Source: Owenweeksia sp.
GTDB taxonomy: Bacteria > Bacteroidota > Bacteroidia > Flavobacteriales > Schleiferiaceae
Assembly (NCBI GenBank): GCA_002695025.1
Contig: NZNV01000025.1
Span: forward strand, 1-64,000
DNA length: 64,000 nucleotides
Direction: 5' to 3'
Below the pieces are notes generated by a model. That model did no database searches. It was given only the letters and a program-made list of their open reading frames with translations, and was not told where the DNA came from. This document shows positions 10,833 to 18,169 of this stretch, piece after piece. Position numbers and translations under genes: made by a program. Each line of letters opens with the position of its first letter. Position 1 is the stretch's first letter.

Positions 10833-12323
10833 ATGTCAAACCTGCAAGTTTCATGTGCCTTCCTGTTGCTTTTCTTCGTCATTTCCTGTTCTTCCGATCC
10901 AATTGCCGAAGAGGATGATACTCCCGTTCCGGTGGTGGGAGCTATACGTGAACCCCTGGTAAACAGGGACCTGGACGCCATTAAAAAAGATGGTAAGCTT
11001 ACGGCCATTACGGTTTACAATTCTACCAGTTATTTCCTGTACCGCGGAAAACCCATGGGGTTCGAATTTGAGCTACTGTCTCGCCTGGCAAAAGATTTGG
11101 GGCTGGAGATGGAAATTGTAATAGCTGAGAACAGTGACGCACTTTTCGATATGCTGAATAAAGGGGAGGGGGATATCATTGCTCATGGTTTAACCATTAC
11201 CCAGGCGCGCCAGGAGATAGTTGACTTTACCGATTACCATTACGTAACCCATCAGGCACTGGTGCAGCGAAAGCCTAAGAACTGGCGCCAACTCCCGGGA
11301 TATAAAGTACAAAGACAACTGATCAGTACACCTCTTGACCTTATTGATGATACCGTGCATGTACGGTGGAACTCTTCCTATTATGAGCGGCTTCAGAATT
11401 TGTCCCGGGAAATAGGAGGTTCCATTTATGTGGACACCGTTCCGGGTAATACCACTACGGAAGACATCATAAAAATGGTGGTGGACGGTGAGATAGACTA
11501 CACCATTGCGGACTATAATATAGCAGCCATCAATCAAACCTATTACCCGATCCTGGACATTGAGACGCCCATCAGTCTTTCGCAGCGTATTGCCTGGGCG
11601 GTACGTAAGAATTCCCCGGAACTGCTGGAAGCCGTAAACCAATGGATAAAAAAAGTGCGGAAGCAGGATTTCTATTATGTAATCTACAATAAGTATTTCA
11701 AGAATAAGAAATCATACAGGCGGAGGATCAAAAGCGACTTTTTCAGTAAGAACGGAGGCAAGATAAGCCGTTATGATGATATCATCCGGGAACATTCCAA
11801 AAGCCTGGGCTGGGATTGGCGTCTGGTTAGTTCCCTGGTTTACCAGGAGTCTCGTTTTGACCCGGGTGTTACCTCCTGGACCGGGGCAGGCGGGCTGATG
11901 CAGCTTATGCCTTCCACAGCGGAGGATCTGGGCTTATATAATCCTGCCAACCCGGATGCCAACATCAGGGCCGGTACAGCCTATCTGCATGAATTATGGG
12001 AGAAATGGAGTGATATTAAAGATAGTATCCAAAGGATCAAGTTTACGATGGCTTCGTACAATTGCGGCTATGGCCATGTAAAGGATGCCCAGCGGCTGAC
12101 GGAATCCTTTGAGGAAGATCCATTGGTATGGGATGATAATGTGGAGGATTACCTTTTAAAGCTTTCCAGCCGGGAATATTTTACCATGCCCGAGGTGGAT
12201 TACGGGTTTGTACGCGGGCGTGAGCCCTATTTATACGTCAAGGAGATCTTCCTCAGGTATGAGCATTATTGCAAATTCATACCCCATGATCCTAAAAAGG
12301 GAAATACGGAAGCTTCGATCTAA
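10833..12323 (+). CDS. MltF-like membrane-bound lytic murein transglycosylase (lipoprotein)
   Basis: A 496-aa protein with lipoprotein signal (FFVISC, lipidated Cys19). Residues ~50-280 form a family 3 solute-binding domain (MGFEFELLSRLAKDLGLEME; ITQARQEIVDFTDYHYVTHQ). Residues ~310-450 form an SLT transglycosylase domain with catalytic Glu339 in VYQESRF, the GAGGLMQLMP motif and ASYNCGYGHV. This two-domain order is that of MltF, which cleaves glycan strands to 1,6-anhydro products and is allosterically controlled by muropeptides bound to the N-terminal domain. It is convergent with the TolC-family gene; the 25-nt gap holds no clear terminator. Confidence 0.93.
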   Translation: MSNLQVSCAFLLLFFVISCSSDPIAEEDDTPVPVVGAIREPLVNRDLDAIKKDGKLTAITVYNSTSYFLYRGKPMGFEFELLSRLAKDLGLEMEIVIAENSDALFDMLNKGEGDIIAHGLTITQARQEIVDFTDYHYVTHQALVQRKPKNWRQLPGYKVQRQLISTPLDLIDDTVHVRWNSSYYERLQNLSREIGGSIYVDTVPGNTTTEDIIKMVVDGEIDYTIADYNIAAINQTYYPILDIETPISLSQRIAWAVRKNSPELLEAVNQWIKKVRKQDFYYVIYNKYFKNKKSYRRRIKSDFFSKNGGKISRYDDIIREHSKSLGWDWRLVSSLVYQESRFDPGVTSWTGAGGLMQLMPSTAEDLGLYNPANPDANIRAGTAYLHELWEKWSDIKDSIQRIKFTMASYNCGYGHVKDAQRLTESFEEDPLVWDDNVEDYLLKLSSREYFTMPEVDYGFVRGREPYLYVKEIFLRYEHYCKFIPHDPKKGNTEASI

Positions 12324-12348: not shown

Positions 12349-13758
12349 TCATCTACCGGAGAGATTCCCCAGCGCATATTTCACTTTTGCGTTAGCTACC
12401 TGGTTTTTGGATACCAACTGTATAAGCTTGATCCTGGAGTTGATATAGGCGGATTCGCGGGAGTTGATCATGAACAAGGAACTTTCTCCAGCGTCAAACA
12501 TGGTTCGTTCCCCCTCCAGTAAGCTCGAATAGTCTTTTACGGTTTTATCCATAATGGAGATCTGGCTGCGCGTGGTTTCCCATTCATTGAAGGACGACCG
12601 TAGTTTATACTGGATATTTTGCCTTTTAGCGAGCAGATCCCATTCAGCTGACTGGATTTTTAAGCGGGTAAGCTTAAGATCTCCTCGCTCTTTACGCAAA
12701 AAAATGGGGATGCCAAAGCTAATGCCCCACTGGTAGTTATTGGCGGTAAGCTCAGACAAACCCTCGTCTCCCACAGGCTGGGTCAGTAAGTTGTATTTAA
12801 GGTCCACTACCGGCTTGAGCTGCTCTCTCTTAAGACGTTCTTCTACTTTAAGCTCATCTATTTTAAGACGACTCCTTTCCAGTTCGGGGTGAAGGTTTGG
12901 AAGGTCTGAATTGAAGGAAAGCGTGTCCAGGGCGGGGTCGGTAAATGAAAACTGATCAATTTCATCATCTTCCGGCCTGGTTTGGGCATCAATTTCCAGG
13001 GGAATGCTACCATCGTTCCAGAGGTATACCGAAGCTAACTCCCGGGCATTGGCTTCCATCATCCTGGCTTCCTGCAGGGCCAGCAGACGGTTTTGTACCT
13101 GTATACCGGCCTCCAGGGTGTCAATAAAAGGACGATCGCCCAGTATGGCAGTAGATTTGATCGCTCTCATACGTTCGGTAGAAAGTAGGTAGGCATCCTC
13201 ATAAACCTCACGGGTGTGATATGCCTCAAACCAATTCCAGTAAGCTTTCCCAGCTTCCAGAAGCAGTTCGTTGAGTAATATCCTGCGCTCGGCCAGGGTG
13301 CTTTCCTGGTATATTTTCGCTTGTTTAAGGCTTGCCCTTCTCTGGTCAATAAATAAACGCTGACCGATAGGAAGGGATAAGCCGGCATACCATAAACCAC
13401 CGTCTGAAGTGGAATTTTCAGGATTAAGGTAGGTGCCATCATTTTTCTCAAAACCACCCTTTACTTCTATTCCATACCAGGTAGGTATCTTCAAGCCGCT
13501 ATCCCATAAGCGGTAATACGTGGTTCCATCAAAGTATTTTTGATTGGCTTGGCTGAAAACCTTTGGGTCAAACCCCCCTCTGGAACGCTGAAGTCTGGCT
13601 TCACCACGCTCCACAGCAAGTTCAGCCTGCATGGCCAGGGGATGATGATTCCTTACCTGGTCCATAAACTTCTCGTAACTGAACAAATACGTTGAATCCT
13701 GGCCCCGTACTTCTTGGATGCACAAAAGGACTATACCAATTATTGCCAGTTTTTTCAT
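12349..13758 (-). CDS. TolC family outer membrane efflux protein
   Basis: A 469-aa protein with signal peptide (MKKLAIIGIVLLCIQEVRG) and the TolC/OEP pattern of two repeated halves rich in long amphipathic helices. GISFGIPIFLRKERGDLKLTRLKIQ and LRSSFNEWETTRSQ mark the second half. It provides the outer-membrane duct of a tripartite exporter. It is the last gene of the operon TetR-ORF103-ABC-HlyD-TolC, and its ATG overlaps the HlyD stop (ATGA). The substrate is unknown. Confidence 0.92.
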   Translation of the reverse strand: MKKLAIIGIVLLCIQEVRGQDSTYLFSYEKFMDQVRNHHPLAMQAELAVERGEARLQRSRGGFDPKVFSQANQKYFDGTTYYRLWDSGLKIPTWYGIEVKGGFEKNDGTYLNPENSTSDGGLWYAGLSLPIGQRLFIDQRRASLKQAKIYQESTLAERRILLNELLLEAGKAYWNWFEAYHTREVYEDAYLLSTERMRAIKSTAILGDRPFIDTLEAGIQVQNRLLALQEARMMEANARELASVYLWNDGSIPLEIDAQTRPEDDEIDQFSFTDPALDTLSFNSDLPNLHPELERSRLKIDELKVEERLKREQLKPVVDLKYNLLTQPVGDEGLSELTANNYQWGISFGIPIFLRKERGDLKLTRLKIQSAEWDLLAKRQNIQYKLRSSFNEWETTRSQISIMDKTVKDYSSLLEGERTMFDAGESSLFMINSRESAYINSRIKLIQLVSKNQVANAKVKYALGNLSGR

Positions 13759-15107
13759 GATCCTTTTTCAGAAGATTTAGATGCTACAGGCTTATAATAG
13801 TCAGGAGGGAAGCCGTTGATCTTTCGCCATAGTTCGTAGCCGATCAGTACATTGCTAAGTAACAACATATTACGGGTGCCAGAACCTACTCTCAACTCAT
13901 CGGGCCACGGATGGTCATTAGGATCGGGCGCTACCAGTACCCGGTATTTACCGTTATCGCTGATGAAATTATCAATGGCATATACTTGTCCTCCATAGGT
14001 TCCGTAACTGGTGTTGGGCCATCCGGAAAAGACAATAGCGGGCCACCCATCAAACTGAATACGCACGTGTTGTCCCTTATCCAGCAGAGGTAGGTCCATA
14101 GGGTTTACGTACATCTCTACGGCCAAATCAAACCTGGCCGGCATGATGCTGACCACAGCCGTTCCCTCTTTAATGGTTTCGCCAATCCCGGATTGGATGG
14201 TTTTAGTAACATACCCATCCTGTGGAGCTTTGATATAATAAAGGCCGCTCCTTACCGAATAATTCATGTACTCGTTTTGCAGTTTGGTAACCATTACCTC
14301 AGAGTCATACATTTGAGAAAGGGAGGCGTACTTTTCGGCTTCCGCCTTGGCGATATTGTCTTTATACTGAGCCTGTATGGAAGCAATTTCCATCTGGGCA
14401 TTAATTACTTCATTCCTGCTGGCCAGTAATTTGTTTTCAGCCGAGATCATTGCCGCCTGAGCCTTTTGCAGGGTGAGTCTCCGGTTTTCGAGATCAGTCA
14501 GCGATTTTAATCCTTCTTCATACAGGTCCTCAAACCTTTGGTATTGCTGCCTGGCAATTTCAAAATTGGTTTGTGCCGCCTGAAAATCAATGCTATCACT
14601 GGTTACCTTGAGTATGGCCTGGCGTAACTTATTCCGGGATTGTTCCAACTTCAAGCGACTGGTTTTTAACAAAGCATCAATCTGAACGTCCAGTGCCGAT
14701 ACTTTTTCCGAGTAGGATTTTACAGCCATTTCTTTGGAACGTAATTGCTGCTCGGTACGCCCCAGTAATTCAGGGTCAAAATACTGGTCCTTTATCTCAC
14801 TGATGAATAGTATGGTATCTCCTTTCTCTACAAAATCACCTTCCTGAACATGCCATTCCTCAATCCGTCCCGCTATAACGGAATGAATAGTCTGAGGCCT
14901 TTGAGCTGGCTTCAGCGTGGTGATATTACCCCTTGCAGTGATGTTTTGGGTCCAGGGTAGGAACATTACAACCACCAAAATTATCAGGAAGGCTATGGAT
15001 AAGCGAATAATTACCTGGCCTGAACTGCGGTTTTCCACTTGTAAAAGTGACTTGTATCGGGAGGAATTTATCCGCTTGCGGGTGCTGTTTTCAGATATAT
15101 TGAGCAT
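13755..15107 (-). CDS. HlyD family periplasmic adaptor (membrane fusion protein)
   Basis: A 450-aa protein. A single membrane helix lies near residues 33-51 (IIRLSIAFLIILVVVMFLPW), followed by a biotinyl-lipoyl half (SVIAGRIEEWHVQEGDFVEKGDTILFIS). A long coiled-coil hairpin covers ~100-260, then the second lipoyl half (YYIKAPQDGYVTKTIQSGIGETIKEG) and a beta-barrel. It bridges the ABC protein and the TolC partner. It lies 12 nt downstream of the ABC gene and overlaps the TolC gene, so the three are one unit. Confidence 0.92.
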   Translation of the reverse strand: MLNISENSTRKRINSSRYKSLLQVENRSSGQVIIRLSIAFLIILVVVMFLPWTQNITARGNITTLKPAQRPQTIHSVIAGRIEEWHVQEGDFVEKGDTILFISEIKDQYFDPELLGRTEQQLRSKEMAVKSYSEKVSALDVQIDALLKTSRLKLEQSRNKLRQAILKVTSDSIDFQAAQTNFEIARQQYQRFEDLYEEGLKSLTDLENRRLTLQKAQAAMISAENKLLASRNEVINAQMEIASIQAQYKDNIAKAEAEKYASLSQMYDSEVMVTKLQNEYMNYSVRSGLYYIKAPQDGYVTKTIQSGIGETIKEGTAVVSIMPARFDLAVEMYVNPMDLPLLDKGQHVRIQFDGWPAIVFSGWPNTSYGTYGGQVYAIDNFISDNGKYRVLVAPDPNDHPWPDELRVGSGTRNMLLLSNVLIGYELWRKINGFPPDYYKPVASKSSEKGS

Positions 15108-15119
15108 TTTTCAAAAGAG

Positions 15120-16832
15120 TTATTGATTAAACAGACCTTGCATTTCACGGTAAGTACCGGAGCGGATTATCCGGCCTTTCTGCATTTGTAGTATGCGGTC
15201 GCATTTTTGTGCCAGGTAAGGATCAGTTGATATGGTAACCATTGACCATGGTTGTGAAGGGGTCATAAGAAAGTCTATGATGTTTTCCTTTTCACTCTGA
15301 TCCAGTTCTGAAAAAGGATTTTCCAGCACCAATAAAGCTGGCTCATGAACTATGCTCCTGGCCAGCAGGAGCTTTACAATAATGTTCCTGGGCAGGCCTT
15401 TGCCTTCGGGAGCCAGAGGGCTCTGATAGCCCTTCGGGGAGTTACGAATAAAATTTTGAAGCCCCAGCCTTTCTATAGTGTTTTTCACTTTTTCAAAAGT
15501 AACCTCCGACCGGCCCAGGGTTATATTTTCAATTACACTACCCCTGAACAGTTGACCTGTATGAAGGTAATCACCTACCATGCTGTAAAGTGAACTGGCT
15601 TCGAGGTTACCCTTCGGCATGCCGTTGAAGGTGAGGCTACCTTCCTGAATACCGTATAGCCCGGCTATTACCGGTAGCATGGTGCTTTTGCCGGATCCGC
15701 TTTCTCCGATAATGAGAAGTTTTTCTCCGGGATTTATTTTCAATGATACATCTTGAAGGGTGGGGCTCTGGTTGCCGGGATATGTAAAACTCACATTCTC
15801 CAACTGCACGGTAAGGCCCTGCCCGGGGGTTTTTTCTATACTCTGTCCGTCCGCATTTTCCAGTTCCAGGTCAGTTACCTGGCCTATCTTTTCAAGCGCT
15901 GTAAGCACGTCATAAAATGTTTCCAGACTGAGTATCAGTTTTTCCACTGAGTTCATAATCAGTAGGATAATGATCTCTGCAGCTACAAACTGGCCAATAT
16001 TCATCTGTTGTTCCATAACCAGTATACCTCCCATAGCAAGAAGGCCCAGGGCCACAATAACCTTGAAGACCACCATTAGGGAAAATTGCTGTATCAGCAC
16101 CTTGAAGTGAGCGTTCCTGGACTCCAGGTAAGCGGTGGCATGTTCATCGGTTCTTTGCATGTGCAGATCGGTTTTGCCAGACATTTTGAAGGATGTTGAA
16201 ACCCTGGCCATTTCTTCCAGCCAGTGAGCTAACTGGTATTTATGTCTGGATTCATTTAAACTGGCCGTGAGTCCTTTTTTACCGGTATAGCGAAAAATGG
16301 CGTACACCAGAACTACCAGTATCAAACTGAAACCAATGAAAAAGGGGTGGTAAAGAGACAATAATAAAAGTCCGAAAACAATGTGAAGACTGGCCGTTGA
16401 AAAGTCGATAAGTATTTTGGAGAGGCCTTTTTGTACGCTCATTACGTCAAAGAAACGGTTCATTAGCTCGGGTGCATAGTGCCGGTAAAGAGTTTCCATA
16501 CGAATAAGAGGAATACGGAAAGTGAATTCAAAGGCGGCTCGCGTGAATATTTTCTGTTGCAGGTCTTCCGTAATTTTCATCTGGAGGATCTGTAACAGGC
16601 CCGTAAGCGCTACCCCCAGCACCACAAAAGACACCAGGATTACCCATGAAGTATTGATCTGGCCCCCTTGGATGAGGTTGACAATAGCCTGTACTCCTAA
16701 AGGAAGGGAGAGGTATATCAACCCATTGAATACCGAGTAGATGTATACATTTCGTATTTCTTTCTGATCGGGTTTCAATAGCCGCCAAAAACGCTGCAGA
16801 GGTGTAAGAACCTCTTTATCATGTAATTTCAT
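15120..16832 (-). CDS. ABC exporter with noncanonical ATPase domain
   Basis: A 570-aa fused membrane/ATPase half-transporter. Residues ~25-310 form a six-helix ABC membrane domain; ~340-560 form the nucleotide-binding domain. Walker A is intact (GESGSGKST, 376-384). The rest is unusual. The Q-loop Gln position is His424. The LSGGQ signature reads LPRNI at 480-484. Walker B ends LLVLEN, so Asp is Glu504 and the catalytic Glu is Asn505. The switch His position is Thr536 (TIST). ATP may bind, but hydrolysis by the standard mechanism is doubtful. There is no C39 peptidase domain. No second ABC half-transporter is nearby to supply competent sites. Confidence 0.9.
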   Translation of the reverse strand: MKLHDKEVLTPLQRFWRLLKPDQKEIRNVYIYSVFNGLIYLSLPLGVQAIVNLIQGGQINTSWVILVSFVVLGVALTGLLQILQMKITEDLQQKIFTRAAFEFTFRIPLIRMETLYRHYAPELMNRFFDVMSVQKGLSKILIDFSTASLHIVFGLLLLSLYHPFFIGFSLILVVLVYAIFRYTGKKGLTASLNESRHKYQLAHWLEEMARVSTSFKMSGKTDLHMQRTDEHATAYLESRNAHFKVLIQQFSLMVVFKVIVALGLLAMGGILVMEQQMNIGQFVAAEIIILLIMNSVEKLILSLETFYDVLTALEKIGQVTDLELENADGQSIEKTPGQGLTVQLENVSFTYPGNQSPTLQDVSLKINPGEKLLIIGESGSGKSTMLPVIAGLYGIQEGSLTFNGMPKGNLEASSLYSMVGDYLHTGQLFRGSVIENITLGRSEVTFEKVKNTIERLGLQNFIRNSPKGYQSPLAPEGKGLPRNIIVKLLLARSIVHEPALLVLENPFSELDQSEKENIIDFLMTPSQPWSMVTISTDPYLAQKCDRILQMQKGRIIRSGTYREMQGLFNQ

Positions 16833-16909
16833 AAATGATCAAGTAATATAAAGTGTTCCGGTTCCGGAGCCGGGTAAAAGCTGCAATGTACAGGGAAAGG
16901 TTGGCTTAG

Positions 16910-17221
16910 TTAACAGCCTTCGGGAGGAGGGGAGAATGTAGAGCAGAGAAAGTGTGTTAACCCGGTACTTAATACTGGAGGAAAAAAGGAGCCATCCAAT
17001 GGTAAGACTACAATAGCCGCAGGAGCCAGATAGTCATCCAGTATCTTAAGGGAGCTTTCTTCAGATTCATAATCGGTTTCACCGGATTCCTGTACCTCCA
17101 TTGGAATATCGTATTTACCGTTCTGGTAGAAGCTGTTATGGGACAGGGCCAGAAGGAATAGTAATAGTATAACCCAGCCATTAAATAGCGAAACCTTTTG
17201 TATGTTGCTCCGGTTCCTCAT
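16910..17221 (-). CDS. Small membrane-anchored or secreted protein in the TetR/ABC operon
   Basis: 103 aa. It has a basic start (MRNRSNIQK), one hydrophobic segment near residues 12-28 (NGWVILLLFLLALSH), an acidic middle (SGETDYESEESS), a second hydrophobic patch near 67-90, and a C-terminus ending CSTFSPPPEGC. I do not recognise a family. The ATG overlaps the TetR stop (TAATG) and the ABC gene follows 77 nt later, so it is transcribed with the exporter. It could be an accessory subunit or the exported substrate. Short proteins ending in a Pro-rich tail occur beside transport genes in Bacteroidota, but this is only a loose resemblance. Confidence 0.65.
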   Translation of the reverse strand: MRNRSNIQKVSLFNGWVILLLFLLALSHNSFYQNGKYDIPMEVQESGETDYESEESSLKILDDYLAPAAIVVLPLDGSFFPPVLSTGLTHFLCSTFSPPPEGC

Positions 17222-17889
17222 TAGGGTGCAATACTTTTAAAGACCATATCATGGTAAAATTTGGAGATGGCATCTTCTCCTTCCAGGATATCCGTTAAGC
17301 TGGGCAAGTGTTCTGCAAAGTAGCGCTGATAATGTGACCCTTCTACTACTGTGGATATAAGCATGTGAGGGTATTTATAGTCAGGGTTTATTTCCATTAC
17401 AATATCACTGATGCGTGCCACCAGTCGCTTGTAAACCGAAAAAACCCCTTCACGGTTTACTTCATCAACTTCTTTTACCAAGTATACTTTAGAAGCTTCC
17501 GCGATTACGATCTTATTGAGTTTAACCTCGTCAACATGCGCAAACTTTCCATCCTGTTCAACCGGACCGGTGAGAAATTGTAAAGCTCTGGAAAGGCGTT
17601 CCTGTGGAGAAGAGATGTTGGCGGTACCAAAATGTAAGCGGTATTCCATCCATTCCCAATACCAGCAGGTAAGATAGAGTAACAATTTATGTTTGCTTTC
17701 AAAATAGCGATATACAGAGGCTTCGGTAGATTCGATGGTACCGGCCAGTTTTCGGAAAGTGAAGCATTCAAAACCCACTTCGTAGATCATCTCAATACTT
17801 CCGGATATAATGCGAAGTCCAAGATCACTGGACTCAGGATCTTTAAGGTAAGTACTGGAATTGATTTTAAATTTCAGATCAGGAAGCAA
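17221..17889 (-). CDS. TetR family transcriptional regulator
   Basis: About 222 aa. The N-terminal helix-turn-helix reads GSIEMIYEVGFECFTFRKLAGTIESTEASVYRYFESKHKLLLYL, typical of TetR; the C-terminal ligand and dimer domain is divergent. The start is uncertain. A TTG at 17919 overlaps the -7 box and cannot be right, so I place it at TTG 17889; CTG 17877 is an alternative and no ATG fits. It heads the five-gene exporter operon. A perfect 17-bp palindrome inside its promoter is the likely operator, so it probably represses itself and the exporter until a ligand binds. Confidence 0.88.
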   Translation of the reverse strand: MLPDLKFKINSSTYLKDPESSDLGLRIISGSIEMIYEVGFECFTFRKLAGTIESTEASVYRYFESKHKLLLYLTCWYWEWMEYRLHFGTANISSPQERLSRALQFLTGPVEQDGKFAHVDEVKLNKIVIAEASKVYLVKEVDEVNREGVFSVYKRLVARISDIVMEINPDYKYPHMLISTVVEGSHYQRYFAEHLPSLTDILEGEDAISKFYHDMVFKSIAP

Positions 17890-17916
17890 AGCTACTTTGA
17901 TTTTTAAATTTACACG

Positions 17917-17948
17917 CAAATATAATAGTAATACTATTAATTTGCAAA
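17917..17948 (-). promoter_or_regulatory. Promoter with embedded palindromic operator of the TetR/exporter operon
   Basis: On the minus strand, TTTG (17948-17945), a 20-nt spacer and TATATTTG (17924-17917) form a near-ideal Bacteroidota promoter. Inside the spacer lies the perfect palindrome TAATAGTA-A-TACTATTA (17923-17939), which overlaps the first bases of the -7 box. Occupancy would block RNA polymerase. Confidence 0.85.
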
Positions 17949-18049: not shown

Positions 18050-18052
18050 GTG

Positions 18053-18126
18053 TGACCTTGCAGGGAGTCGAACCCCGAACCTCCGCATCCGTAGTGCGGT
18101 GCTCTATCCAGTTAAGCTACAAGGCC
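18053..18126 (-). tRNA. tRNA-Arg (anticodon ACG)
   Basis: A 74-nt cloverleaf on the minus strand. The acceptor stem is GGCCTTG/CAAGGTC with one G-T pair and discriminator A. The D-arm contains TAGCTTAACTGGATAGAGC. The anticodon loop is CTACGGA with anticodon ACG (reads CGU, and CGC/CGA if A34 is deaminated to inosine). The T-arm is GGGTTCGACTCCC. The CCA tail is not encoded. A terminator follows directly. Confidence 0.96.
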
Positions 18127-18169
18127 ATTGTTTGAGGGCTGCAAATATAAAACTATTTATGGGAAACTG

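Follow-up and report, generated by a model that had tools for sequence, protein, structure and literature searches.

An exporter operon of Owenweeksia sp. (Flavobacteriales) encodes an ABC-type inner-membrane protein whose nucleotide-binding domain (NBD) lacks the residues of ATP hydrolysis, and comparison of sequences indicates that this loss of the ATPase is real at the level of a whole family of tripartite exporters and goes further than was first stated, one clade of relatives having no NBD at all. We propose that the ABC-type/HlyD/TolC complex is probably not run on ATP hydrolysis, and that the NBD would be a relic and the membrane domain the part that works. The window referred to below is the entire analysed stretch of 64,000 nucleotides (positions 1 to 64,000 of contig NZNV01000025.1, assembly GCA_002695025.1).

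Organization of the operon

The genes and protein features of the operon are listed in Table 1. The open reading frames of the TolC, HlyD, ABC and TetR genes are all intact; the ABC and HlyD genes are 12 bp apart, and the HlyD and TolC genes overlap by 4 bp. A first-pass annotation had described a complete, TetR-controlled exporter operon. Its completeness was borne out by Pfam, which recognised ABC, HlyD and TolC components; the TetR gene is indeed adjacent and co-directional, and the word "controlled" is to be read as that adjacency. In the ABC protein, the membrane domain scored 33.5 bits against PF00664 (cut-off, 28), the NBD matched PF00005 (2.5e-15), and no peptidase domain was recognised by Pfam. 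Look-alikes of the 103-aa ORF occupy the same place between the TetR and ABC genes in L048, L076, L077 and L092, and most relatives are without one.

Table 1. Positions of the operon genes and of the sites of the ABC protein in the window
Feature	Position	Strand	Remarks
TolC-family outer-membrane channel, 469 aa	12349-13758	minus	Pfam OEP 5e-37
HlyD-family periplasmic adaptor, 450 aa	13755-15107	minus	Pfam HlyD_3 5e-15
ABC-exporter-like protein, 570 aa, predicted catalytically dead NBD	15120-16832	minus	ABC_membrane + ABC_tran
Switch-His position: Thr536	15225-15227	minus	
Walker B LLVLEN, residues 500-505	15318-15335	minus	Glu504 for Asp, Asn505 for catalytic Glu
Signature position: LPRNI (residues 480-484)	15381-15395	minus	replaces LSGGQ
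Q-loop position: His424	15561-15563	minus	replaces Gln
Walker A GESGSGKST, residues 376-384	15681-15707	minus	intact
Transmembrane domain (TMD), residues 8-330	15843-16811	minus	strongly conserved (NRFFD-x4-QK, GQFVAAE)
Glu286 in TM6	15975-15977	minus	
Second coupling-helix region, residues 208-224	16161-16211	minus	helix 212-217 in AF2 model
103-aa ORF between TetR and ABC genes	16910-17221	minus	one hydrophobic segment, acidic stretch, C-terminal PPPEGC
TetR-family regulator, first gene	17221-17919	minus	Pfam TetR_N 6e-7; TTG start uncertain

Just upstream of the TetR gene lie a tRNA-like sequence and then a terminator-like hairpin (~18050-18130, minus strand), and the TetR promoter region has TATATTTG, which resembles the Bacteroidota -7 element. 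The convergent neighbour (10833-12323) encodes an SBP_bac_3 solute-binding domain fused to a lytic transglycosylase SLT domain and is MltF-like.

Family-wide loss of catalytic residues

The ABC gene of the window was found in 36 of 60 near relatives, and a profile search (E < 1e-100) detected its family or the sister clade in 97 of 395 genomes across the phylum. A scan of GTDB genomes gave 294 relatives, from which 80 loci were kept. HlyD came after the ABC gene in all 80, and TolC was present in 74 and a TetR homologue, mostly just upstream of the ABC gene, in 56; several of these loci, including several of those without TolC, end at contig ends. As the first-pass annotation had said of the window operon, no partner ABC half is encoded alongside, and no second ABC half-transporter adjoins the family ABC gene in the 80 loci inspected.

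The residues were counted in 164 full-length Bacteroidia relatives (the per-position table still counted one sister-clade sequence, which this census excludes). The catalytic Glu was found in 10 and the switch His in one, with both together in none; Walker B Asp and Q-loop Gln were each found in 16 and the signature Gln in none, while the Walker A Lys was kept in 158. The commonest Walker B pair is a swapped Glu-Asp (75/164), followed by the Glu-Asn of the window protein (22) and Lys-Asp (21), and Glu-Tyr and Asp-Asn also occur. Positions 424 and 536 belong to the more variable ones. The motif losses first noticed in the window protein, with Walker A kept, are thus confirmed position by position and had been understated; the canonical residues are lost throughout the family, the substitutions at the catalytic positions vary between lineages, and a Bacteroidia homologue combining this operon with canonical motifs was not found.

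Walker A is itself lost or altered in the full-length proteins of L105, L111, L117, L118-L120 and L288. An N-terminal extension of ~150-240 aa is present in L161-L163 and L164-L168, and no Pfam family was found in those scanned (L161, L162 and L164).

Other exporters of the same genome (L002-L007), aligned beside the window protein, have the Q-loop Gln, LSGGQ or a near form of it, the switch His, and a Walker B in which D is followed by E (by D in one). Since these exporters are canonical or near-canonical in the same alignment, the losses cannot be put down to misalignment or to a peculiarity of the genome; nor are they due to chance or sequencing error, because they recur across the whole family.

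Relatives without an NBD

In 68 family proteins of 329-385 aa, from three bacterial families (coded f17, f23 and f24) and some of them from single-contig genomes, the chain ends after the membrane domain and the whole NBD is gone. HlyD is the gene that comes next on the same strand in all 68 cases (gap, -53 to +118 bp; mostly an 8-bp overlap), and TolC comes after HlyD in the longer loci. With HlyD directly next, these loci leave no space for an NBD, and an NBD split off as a separate ORF is ruled out. With the nearest dead NBD as the query, no displaced family NBD was found in 10 NBD-less genomes; the best NBD matches in them were 22-32% and belonged mostly to ordinary full-length exporters or stand-alone ATPases, and therefore no family NBD has simply been relocated. 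One further locus (L211) seemed NBD-less and in fact ends at a contig end. Both forms occur together in one genome (G622), which has two NBD-less copies alongside one that is full-length.

Eroded relatives were also found on Sphingomonadales plasmids together with HlyD and TolC (e.g., N. aromaticivorans pNL2 WP_049759575.1 and Croceicoccus WP_066850558.1), where RefSeq names them "ABC transporter transmembrane domain-containing protein". The eight Sphingomonadales relatives checked are without Walker A, the Walker B acids and the switch His, and keep the operon. Erosion is similar in Aureibacter tunicatorum WP_309940528.1; in this protein, as in a Sphingobium relative, Pfam finds no NBD. Of the Sphingomonadales loci (L287 and L396-L402), two have, in the place of TetR, an immediately upstream gene for a LysR-type regulator.

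Evolution and selection

Walker B DE and the switch His are for the most part retained in a sister clade from other families of the phylum, which already lacks the Q-loop Gln and a complete signature; with its DE and His, this clade shows the ancestral state. In a membrane-domain tree (IQ-TREE, 63 rows), which was oriented by this DE-His clade, the TMDs of the own-genome exporters being too distant as an outgroup, the clade was split from the Bacteroidia family with 100/100 support. The NBD-less proteins formed one clade (100/99) nested within the dead-NBD Bacteroidia family, with an N-terminally extended dead-NBD protein as its sister (100/96), and FastTree recovered the same 68-member clade in a larger set. 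The three groups may be a preserved evolutionary series, from a motor with DE and His through a dead motor to no motor.

Purifying selection acts on the dead NBD and on the NBD-less membrane domain alike, with dN/dS of ~0.03-0.2 and ~0.02-0.28, respectively, for pairs with unsaturated dS. Together with the family-wide losses, this rules out a sequencing error or a pseudogene, and the earlier judgement that the operon is not decaying stands. Among dead members, change is faster in the NBD than in the TMD (mean entropy, 2.20 versus 1.36 bits), and NBD identity exceeded TMD identity in 0 of 2000 random pairs; the contrast is milder in the DE-His clade (1.63 versus 1.35 bits), where NBD identity was higher in 26% of pairs. 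Residues 208-224, which include the second coupling helix, lose conservation only in the NBD-less clade, and the NRFFD-x4-QK and GQFVAAE motifs stay conserved there.

Glu89, Glu194 and Glu286 are conserved, Glu286 being invariant in all Bacteroidia relatives, with or without an NBD, and present also in Sphingomonadales relatives. A gain of charged transmembrane residues alongside the loss of catalysis was not seen, most conserved membrane charges predating that loss; because of this, the gain of a proton path cannot be shown from them, and Glu286, which likewise predates the loss, is a candidate only.

Structural models and comparison with known systems

In AF2 monomer models, the window protein had a mean pLDDT of 85.7 with a confident NBD, and an NBD-less protein (mean pLDDT, 82.8) was predicted to have an elbow helix and six long helices in an exporter bundle. 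The NBD-less model matched TmrB (6rai_B; Z 27.0, 2.5 A, 320 residues) and HlyB (8dck_A; Z 26.4, 2.7 A, 324 residues). The top fold matches of the window model were heterodimeric degenerate-site exporters (the TM287/288, TmrAB and MsRv1273c/72c group).

The operon of ABC, HlyD and TolC and the six-TM exporter fold are common to the type I secretion and peptide exporters (HlyB-HlyD-TolC, PCAT1 and the LssB type). The closest NCBIfam subfamily, TIGR03375 (LssB-type), scored 205.8 bits against a cut-off of 693.1, and other type I secretion subfamilies were also far below their cut-offs. Unlike type I secretion ATPases, the window protein is without the catalytic residues and one clade of its relatives is without the NBD.

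The nearest precedent is SbmA/BacA (SLiPT), like that clade an ABC-exporter-type membrane domain without an NBD, which is driven by the proton gradient and has been proposed to originate from a full-length ABC transporter by loss of the NBDs and coupling helices (PMC13316013). SbmA, however, is an importer of a different family, whereas the present family adjoins HlyD and TolC genes, its dead-NBD intermediates survive, and only the 68-member clade, not the window protein, is without an NBD. Transport by SbmA/BacA is driven by protons through a glutamate ladder. PF00664 was the only membrane-domain family above cut-off for both the window and the NBD-less proteins, which by sequence do not belong to the SbmA family. 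The absence of SbmA among the 50 fold matches listed for the NBD-less model carries no weight against a similarity. A literature search, covering papers outside subscription, found no such system described.

Inorganic-carbon genes near the operon

Pfam-checked genes for SulP, beta-carbonic anhydrase (CA) or DabA recur near the operon (L325, L048, L109, L215, L298, L333 and L287). SulP, CA, ABC, HlyD and TolC form one run in L325:6751-10770, with a 4-bp overlap of SulP and CA; neighbour regions lie at L048:3155-10464 and L287:1312-5614, and CA adjoins TolC in the NBD-less locus L333. SulP or CA was present in 8 of 80 discovery loci against 0.4 genes expected from genome density, this set being the one in which the pattern was first noticed and the expectation ignoring shared ancestry. 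It was present in 3 of 59 further loci (0.7 expected, P ~0.03) and in none of 41 shifted control regions, and Sphingomonadales loci are mostly without it. These neighbours suggest a link to inorganic carbon, which we regard as a lead and not as a result.

Proposed mechanism and alternatives

In the tripartite envelope complex that we propose, an ABC-exporter-type membrane dimer would act with the HlyD adaptor and the TolC channel, the inner-membrane subunit having presumably descended from an ATP-driven exporter and no longer using ATP hydrolysis as its drive. Since the hydrolysis residues are gone, the operon is kept and the domain is dispensable in one clade, the conserved membrane domain would be the working part and would function without ATP hydrolysis. 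The strong conservation of Walker A and the purifying selection on dead NBDs suggest that nucleotide binding matters, for structure or control, where the NBD is kept; the NBD of the window protein would then be a folded pseudo-ATPase, probably still nucleotide-binding, with a structural or regulatory role. The most plausible energy source may be an ion gradient, because SbmA, the proposed former ABC transporter, is proton-driven (PMC13316013); alternatively, the complex would be a gated conduit. Discarding of the NBD would be a later step in the nested clade. We infer the lack of ATP hydrolysis in vivo, the nucleotide binding, the ion-gradient drive and the direction of export.

The first-pass annotation favoured an altered but working motor, which appears either too weak a statement or wrong. 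On that account, a homodimer would hydrolyse ATP slowly through the swapped Glu-Asp Walker B and without a switch His; this pair, at positions 504 and 505, is the commonest, and the retention of Walker A, the purifying selection on the NBD and its confident model agree with such a motor. We nevertheless consider it unlikely: a dispensable motor fits better than a re-engineered one, because the substitutions vary (Glu-Asn in the window protein, and Lys-Asp, Glu-Tyr or Asp-Asn in others, with 424 and 536 variable), the NBD changes faster, several members lack Walker A, and the NBD is gone from one clade.

A canonical ABC half-transporter or an NBD encoded elsewhere could also supply one consensus site in a heterodimer. 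Exporters with one degenerate site and noncanonical residues in the exporter fold are known (TM287/288, MsRv1273c/72c; PMC12038006), and other, unlinked exporters are present in the genome of the window. However, TM287/288, TmrAB and MsRv1273c/72c keep one consensus site per dimer, whereas the operon and the 80 syntenic loci inspected encode no partner half, and the NBD-less relatives combine the lack of a displaced family NBD with a relaxed second coupling helix; a partner in trans is accordingly rather improbable. Least probable is a regulatory or structural scaffold that performs no transport and whose role would be to anchor or gate the HlyD-TolC conduit, or to sense a nucleotide or ligand, for although HlyD is at least as conserved as ABC in most related loci and the operon has outlived its motor, strong conservation extends over the whole six-TM exporter bundle, inner residues included, beyond what a scaffold would seem to need.

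Implications

Descriptions of tripartite pumps name ABC, RND or MFS transporters as the inner-membrane engine (PMC8277102). If the proposed reading, a complex not run on ATP hydrolysis, is true, an ABC-type engine minus its ATPase would be a further way to energise such pumps, and the family would represent, after SbmA, what looks like an independent second instance of ATPase-domain loss from an ABC transporter, with the intermediates extant. Members that RefSeq names "ABC transporter ATP-binding protein" (e.g., Riemerella WP_004920602.1 and Aureibacter WP_309940528.1) are probably misnamed in function. Only tentatively can the larger claim be advanced that these proteins may form a distinct class of tripartite envelope transporters, energised without ATP, with its evolutionary steps preserved and perhaps linked to inorganic carbon. 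The natural set of DE-His, dead and NBD-less proteins would allow ATP-free cycling of an exporter membrane domain to be tested directly.
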